Shown: piece after piece, positions 53,126-54,660 of the stretch
Position numbering within the stretch: position 1 is the first letter of the stretch
Layout of the letters: every line of letters starts with the position of its first letter
DNA from: Acidipropionibacterium timonense
Lineage (GTDB): Bacteria > Actinomycetota > Actinomycetes > Propionibacteriales > Propionibacteriaceae
Reading direction: 5' to 3'
Assembly (NCBI RefSeq): GCF_900605005.1
Contig: NZ_LR027558.1
Location: 1-64,000, forward strand
Length of the DNA: 64,000 bases
The notes under the pieces: generated by a model
Seen by the model: only the letters and a program-made list of their open reading frames with translations
Database searches by the model: none
Told to the model about the DNA's origin: nothing
Position numbers and translations under genes: made by a program

Positions 53126-53428
53126 GGTGCCCAATGTACGGCACGGGGCACATGGTCGACAGGGTTGTGACGCCAGCTGGGCCGACGGCGACCTCCTGGT
53201 CGGTCAAGGGAGGCCGCCGTCTGGTCGAATGCTGACCTGATCGCCCGACTGACCACGTCATTCAGGACCGGAGCGCCGCCCGCGCAGCCGGATCGACTTG
53301 GCTCATGAGGAACTGCGACCTCGCCCGGACACCGCCGGCGGAGACACGCGGCCGGTGGTCGGGTGTAGCGAAGGATAGCGGGGTATAGCGATCTGCTACA
53401 TGGCGCTAGATTTCACTACACTTGGGAT
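53126..53428. promoter_or_regulatory. 303-base spacer with phased TAGCG repeats before the ATPase gene
   Basis: TAGCG occurs at 53366, 53376 and 53386, spaced exactly 10 bases apart, and its complement CGCTA at 53404-53408. TGTAGCGAA (53364-53372) and TTCACTACA (53412-53420) form an outer imperfect inverted pair. A TACACT -10 box at 53417-53422 ends 6 bases before the GTG at 53429. The left part, 53126-53360, shows the SDR promoter and no other gene. Confidence 0.6.
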
Positions 53429-54598
53429 GTGGAGAGGACACAGAACCCGTATTCGCCCGGGGCAGGGCGAACGCCGGCAGCGTTCGTGGGCCGTGACGCG
53501 CAGCTCGAGGCCTGGTTCGTGGGGTTGCAACGCATCGAACACAACCTGTCAGCCAGGCCGCTGGCCCTCTACGGGCTGCGTGGTGTGGGCGAGACGGTGC
53601 TGTTGAACAGGATGCGCCGCGACGCCGAGGGCCGCGGCTGGCTCACCGCGAAGGTGGAGGCCGGTGCCGGCAAGAGCCTGCGCGAAGCGCTCGGCGAGGC
53701 TCTCTACGGCCCCTTGGCGGACCTGGCGCGGCCCAGTGCCGGGATGCGGCTGCTCAAAGGGCTGCGGACCGCGCTCAGCTTCAAGGCATCCTATGACTCC
53801 ACCGGAACCTGGTCCTTCGGGCTGGACCTGGCCGACGCGCCCGGGGGTGGCGCCAACAGCGGCGTGCTGGAGACCGACCTGACCAAGCTGGTCAAGGACC
53901 TGTCCGGTGCCGGCGCCGAGACCGGTCATGGGCTGGCGATCCTCATCGACGAGGCCCAGGACCTCGACCGCGACGAGCTCACTGCGCTGTGCGCCGTTGC
54001 GCACCAGGCCTCGCAGGACGACTGGCCCTTCCTGCTCGCGGTCGCCGGGCTGCCCAGCCTTCCTCGGGATCTGGCCGAGGCCAAGTCGTACGCGGAACGG
54101 TTGTTCGACTACCATCACATCGACACCCTGGCCGCCGACCAGGCCCGCCTCGCATTGCTCAGCCCCGCACAGGACGCCGGCGCCACATGGGACGGCGACG
54201 CCCTTGAGCTGGTCGTCTCGACCGCCGAGGGGTACCCCTATTTCCTGCAGCAGTACGGTGAGAGCGCTTGGAACCAAGCACCCCAGTCCCCCATCACCCT
54301 TGTCGATGCCCGCATCGGCGTCGCCGACGGCACCCTTGCCCTCGACACCGGATTCTTCCGCTCACGCTGGGATCGGGCCACCCGGGCCGAACGTGACTAC
54401 CTGCGCGCCATGGCAATTGACGCCGGCGACAGCTCCACCAGCGACGTTGCCCGGCGATTGGGGCGCCACCTCAGTAGCCTGGGACCCACCCGCGCCAAAC
54501 TCATCGACAAAGGCCTCATCTACTCCCCTGAACACGGTCGCATCGCATTCACCGTGCCCGGTATGCAGACCTTCATCAACCGTCAGTCCACCGAATAG
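53429..54598 (+). CDS. Solitary AAA-type ATPase with substituted Walker A lysine and C-terminal winged helix
   Basis: The 389-residue protein resembles Orc/Cdc6-like or STAND-type AAA ATPases: an N-terminal VGRDAQLEAW segment, a P-loop region GLRGVGETVLL at 49-59, Walker B ILIDEAQD at 171-178, a sensor-like LLAVAGLPSLP and a C-terminal winged helix (SSTSDVARRLGRHLSSLG). The P-loop has Glu55 (GAG) where the essential lysine (AAG) is expected. It is not in an operon and appears leaderless. The function is unknown; the altered P-loop suggests nucleotide binding without hydrolysis, or decay. Confidence 0.8.
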   Translation: MERTQNPYSPGAGRTPAAFVGRDAQLEAWFVGLQRIEHNLSARPLALYGLRGVGETVLLNRMRRDAEGRGWLTAKVEAGAGKSLREALGEALYGPLADLARPSAGMRLLKGLRTALSFKASYDSTGTWSFGLDLADAPGGGANSGVLETDLTKLVKDLSGAGAETGHGLAILIDEAQDLDRDELTALCAVAHQASQDDWPFLLAVAGLPSLPRDLAEAKSYAERLFDYHHIDTLAADQARLALLSPAQDAGATWDGDALELVVSTAEGYPYFLQQYGESAWNQAPQSPITLVDARIGVADGTLALDTGFFRSRWDRATRAERDYLRAMAIDAGDSSTSDVARRLGRHLSSLGPTRAKLIDKGLIYSPEHGRIAFTVPGMQTFINRQSTE

Positions 54599-54660
54599 CC
54601 CATCCTGAGTCCAGGCCGTCAACGACGACCTCGTGACCCGAACCGCCTACGCTCGGGACC

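Follow-up and report, generated by a model that had tools for sequence, protein, structure and literature searches.

A gene for an AAA_16-type ATPase, located within the window (i.e., the whole analyzed stretch of 64,000 nucleotides of the Acidipropionibacterium timonense contig NZ_LR027558.1), encodes a protein in which the Walker A lysine is replaced by glutamate (Glu55), and this glutamate is private to this genome. We consider it probable that a single base change has recently caused the loss of function of this stand-alone AAA_16 ATPase, a horizontally acquired protein that resembles Orc proteins and archaeal ATPases. Glu55 does not make the protein a new type of ATPase, and the array of phased triplets in the promoter of the gene is the more interesting part of the locus. 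The following features of the gene and its product were distinguished:

53429..54598, + strand: AAA_16-type ATPase gene, 389 aa, GTG start (ORF reading and Pfam profile)
53573..53596, + strand: Walker A (P-loop) GLRGVGET, residues 49–56
53591..53593, + strand: GAG codon for Glu55; a lysine codon in the examined relatives
53939..53962, + strand: Walker B ILIDEAQD, residues 171–178, intact
54383..54562, + strand: C-terminal winged-helix-like region, about residues 319–378 (secondary structure of the predicted model; Pfam winged-helix families sub-threshold only)

The original prediction, made from the letters of the DNA, described an open frame, a P-loop reading GLRGVGETV with a GAG codon one base away from the lysine codon, an intact Walker B motif, and a C-terminal winged helix, and all of these elements were recovered; it mentioned neither the insertion of the gene nor the phased repeats of its promoter. 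The frame (53429–54598) is open over 389 codons from its GTG start, with the sole stop codon at its end; GAG is present at 53591–53593 and differs by a single base from the lysine codon of the family; and ILIDEAQD is in place, its acidic pair (D174/E175) being invariant in 17/17 alignment rows. The structure predicted from the 17-row alignment (mean pLDDT of 84.8) contains an AAA core and, at the C-terminus, a helical/winged region with helices at residues 319–329, 337–344, and 348–360 and a strand at residues 371–374. The protein reached 50.5 bits with the Pfam AAA_16 profile (PF13191; cut-off 32.6), and it belongs to this group by descent only, as the motif is broken, i.e., the Walker A lysine of the general P-loop NTPase signature has no match in it. 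The PADLOC anti-phage defence profiles gave no matching family at E 0.1. A distant paralogue encoded in the same genome (L055, G000:C1:449497-450642; 29% identity) has a normal, lysine-containing P-loop (GEAGSGKS).

Over its full length, the window protein shows 53.9–67% identity to actinobacterial and plasmid-encoded AAA_16 (PF13191) “ATP-binding proteins”, with which it shares the P-loop context, Walker B, the C-terminal region, and the stand-alone character of the gene, and from which it differs by having glutamate instead of lysine in the P-loop. The closest folds were those of the archaeal AAA ATPases PABY2304 (2qen) and SSO1545 (2fna), with Z-scores of 23.5 (321 residues) and 22.3 (313 residues), respectively, although the identity to these proteins is 15–16% and the P-loop of the window protein differs by its glutamate. 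A sequence search of the PDB gave no significant relative, and no archaeal ATPase family was listed by Pfam at E 0.1. In its AAA core and winged-helix-like region, the window protein also resembles the Orc1/Cdc6 initiators (1w5t, 2qby, and 2v1u; Z of 17–20), amongst which the archaeal Orc2 (1w5t, Z of 19.9) ranked behind 2qen and 2fna, and plant/animal STAND proteins and TnsC/MuB gave lower fold matches than the archaeal Orc; with the Orc1/Cdc6 profile TIGR02928, the window protein obtained 12.9 bits, against a cut-off of 181.3. In yeast Cdc6, the same replacement of lysine by glutamate is a well-known loss-of-function allele.

Glu55 among the relatives

The original prediction proposed to check whether glutamate is conserved at this position in orthologues, and this turned out not to be the case. 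To avoid bias, the search was performed at the DNA level for the pattern GLRGVG-x-TVL with the codon at x left free, a procedure that quickly settles whether an active-site change is conserved. The family set yielded 65 matches in 59 of 198 genomes and the class set 113 matches in 111 of 394 genomes, the matching rows of both sets overlapping in the window genome only. Apart from the window, a lysine codon (AAG or AAA) was found in 64/64 and 112/112 of them, respectively, that is in all 176 other matches (counted as DNA-pattern matches), and the reversed control pattern gave zero matches. Within viral contigs, 39 stretches matched the pattern, of which 35 were homologs according to phmmer, all of them with lysine (35/35), and the four non-homologous ones read Ala (three) or Arg (one). 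A protein scan of the viral contigs had found no relative, whereas the later DNA pattern did find some. A conserved regulatory glutamate was rejected, since this residue was present in 0/176 pattern matches and 0/35 viral-contig homologs. It is also worth mentioning that members of this ATPase family are often found on contigs with a viral classification (35 loci) and on plasmids (119 records of relatives).

Amongst the 53 fetched loci, the P-loop contains lysine in 52/52 loci other than the window's own copy, a count that includes six remote relatives and two pairs (L002/L041 and L003/L036) which score alike and are probably the same genes. In the alignment with 16 relatives, taken from 23 loci after leaving out L047 (partial) and L048–L053 (remote), 53 ungapped columns were identical in all the other proteins; the window protein keeps 52 of them and breaks one (K55E). 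Its private changes, determined with the 13 closest rows, number nine, within the range of 0 to 12 found for the relatives. The gene was also checked for signs of decay: its frame is free of premature stops and frameshifts, and K55E is the only radical change at a conserved site. When a single genome shows so marked a change in an active site, a private lesion or an error is the simplest explanation, and Glu55 is in this respect a useful caution.

Phased triplets in the promoter

Two features were distinguished directly upstream of the gene:

53366..53418, no strand assigned: six TAG/CTA triplets (TAG x3, CTA x3) at an exact 10-nt spacing, a candidate self-operator (spacing analysis)
53417..53422, + strand: putative -10 hexamer TACACT, 6 nt before GTG (by eye)

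The triplets TAG, TAG, TAG, CTA, CTA, and CTA are localized at -63, -53, -43, -33, -23, and -13, respectively. None of 5000 dinucleotide shuffles (0/5000) matched the window array in its number of 9–11-nt pairs, and chains of at least four copies were present in the array tile alone among the 492 tiles of the window. The CTA triple array occurs twice in this genome, both times at the ATPase promoter.

Phasing was also found upstream of the related genes. Within 16 close promoters (window included), the spacings peaked at 10–11, 20–22, and 30–32 nt, and there were 73 pairs at 9–11 nt, compared with an average of 9.2 and at most 25 in 500 shuffles, with the counts representing non-independent events, as these promoters are partly related (L034 and L057 are nearly alike). 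For 30 more distant promoters, 42 pairs were counted (mean 6.7, maximum 17), with an extra peak at 12–13 nt. Chains of at least four copies were identified in 10/16 close promoters versus 0/1172 tiles elsewhere in the same loci; the remaining 6/16 have a weak CTA/TAG array or none. Under a stricter rule (at least five copies, steps of 9–12), the array was found upstream in 7/48 loci and once elsewhere in 302,827 bases. Loci lacking enough upstream sequence or the NP-motif were left out of the upstream analysis, and L002 and L003 were dropped from the spacing analysis as duplicates of L041 and L036 (same scores).

A-tracts or base composition as the cause of this phasing were rejected, because in the close group CTA/TAG showed the strongest 10–11-nt excess of 32 trinucleotide classes (65 pairs, where the other spacings would predict 5.1); in the other group, CTA/TAG was second to TAA/TTA, the latter with only 4 pairs. 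What counts against the generality of the array is that, in the viral-contig homologs, a CTA/TAG chain of at least three was found in 0/31 scored promoters. Inspection by eye of the promoters of five viral loci (L086, L100, L105, L106, and L108) suggests repeats of TAAG/CTTA rather than CTA/TAG, with a spacing of about 10 nt.

The last CTA of the array overlaps the putative -10 hexamer, whose position six nt before GTG may suggest a leaderless transcript. A consensus promoter/terminator scan found nothing, including no promoter at the putative -10. We infer that the array is a candidate self-operator, which we take to be reminiscent of the initiator boxes of Orc1/Cdc6. The phased array points to a nucleotide-controlled assembly on the ATPase's own promoter and gives a testable clue to the role of a widespread, apparently uncharacterised ATPase family.

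Consequences of the substitution

The Walker A lysine contacts the phosphates in P-loop NTPases, and an acidic residue in its place usually impairs nucleotide binding itself as well as hydrolysis. Normal members of the family would bind ATP through this lysine and then oligomerise, with the C-terminal winged helix presumably placed on the CTA/TAG array that spans their own promoter in phase with the DNA helix, and binding to the array would switch their own expression. In the K55E copy, Glu55 would introduce a negative charge at the site of the phosphates, so the protein is expected neither to bind nucleotide nor to reach the ATP-dependent state; DNA binding by the window protein and autoregulation are likewise presumed.

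The suggestion of the original prediction that the protein is a regulator binding nucleotide without hydrolysis seems the less likely consequence, because an acidic replacement normally impairs binding too; moreover, glutamate occurs in no examined relative and the P-loop has no evident lysine that could compensate. Its other suggestion, a recent inactivating mutation, fits best, as the codon is one base off, private to the genome, and the sole broken column of 53 unanimous ones.

Since the intact ORF and the promoter array show no other decay, either the lesion is very recent or the base is wrong. The latter would mean a consensus or sequencing error in the gene of an ordinary ATPase whose true codon is lysine, which is possible, if somewhat unlikely: a single base breaks only one of the 53 unanimous columns and the protein and its promoter otherwise look fully functional, but the genome scored 99.98% complete, the site lies outside any homopolymer, good assemblies rarely contain substitution errors, and a random error would seldom land on this codon (although it was this very change that led to the finding being selected). 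The GAG base is presumably real.

Alongside the loss-of-function reading, a more speculative one may be put forward, to which we assign a low probability. The gene would encode a mobile, stand-alone Orc-like ATPase with its own phased operator (CTA/TAG every 10–11 bp), binding as one protomer per DNA turn, and K55E would be a natural nucleotide-blind form that is still operator-bound and locks the promoter. Functional divergence, in which Glu55 would have been selected in a nucleotide-independent DNA-binding regulator, is very unlikely. In its favor, the gene retains its frame, Walker B, winged helix, and promoter array, and some proteins with the P-loop fold do function with degenerate P-loops; yet none of the 176 matches and 35 viral-contig homologs has glutamate, and the unchanged Walker B and remaining P-loop give no sign of co-adaptation.

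Insertion and origin of the gene

The ATPase gene occupies an additional segment of DNA:

about 53135..54660 (start 53135 or 53165), + strand: segment inserted between SDR and nfo (approximate extent)

In 8/8 same-genus genomes, SDR and nfo are adjacent without the ATPase gene, and the ATPase protein is encoded in none of them (0/8). The gap between SDR and nfo is roughly 55–145 nt in the printed stretches of the congeners versus 1526 nt in the window, where it is filled by the ATPase gene, and the GC3 of this gene is 0.84 versus 0.93 for SDR and 0.90 for nfo. The closest relatives are encoded by Humibacillus, Specibacter, Arthrobacter, and others, as well as by Arthrobacter/Paenarthrobacter plasmids. 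Within 15 loci, no shared neighbor gene was found except for a few pairs (L034/L057, L056/L057, and L032/L044), and inspection of the insertion ends by eye identified no terminal inverted repeats or target duplication. As the gene is absent from the congeners, has a lower GC3, has its relatives elsewhere and on plasmids, and generally does not share its neighbors with them, we infer that it is an accessory gene travelling alone with its promoter. Despite a probable inactivating change in an accessory gene missing from 8/8 congeners, an older, decaying pseudogene of an acquired element is hardly credible, given that neither premature stops nor frameshifts interrupt the frame and that no conserved position other than residue 55 is radically altered, and differs from the recent loss of function favored here in age alone. 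With regard to the flanking gene, the nfo homolog of one congener (L066, G001:C1:74814-75605) contains an in-frame TGA.
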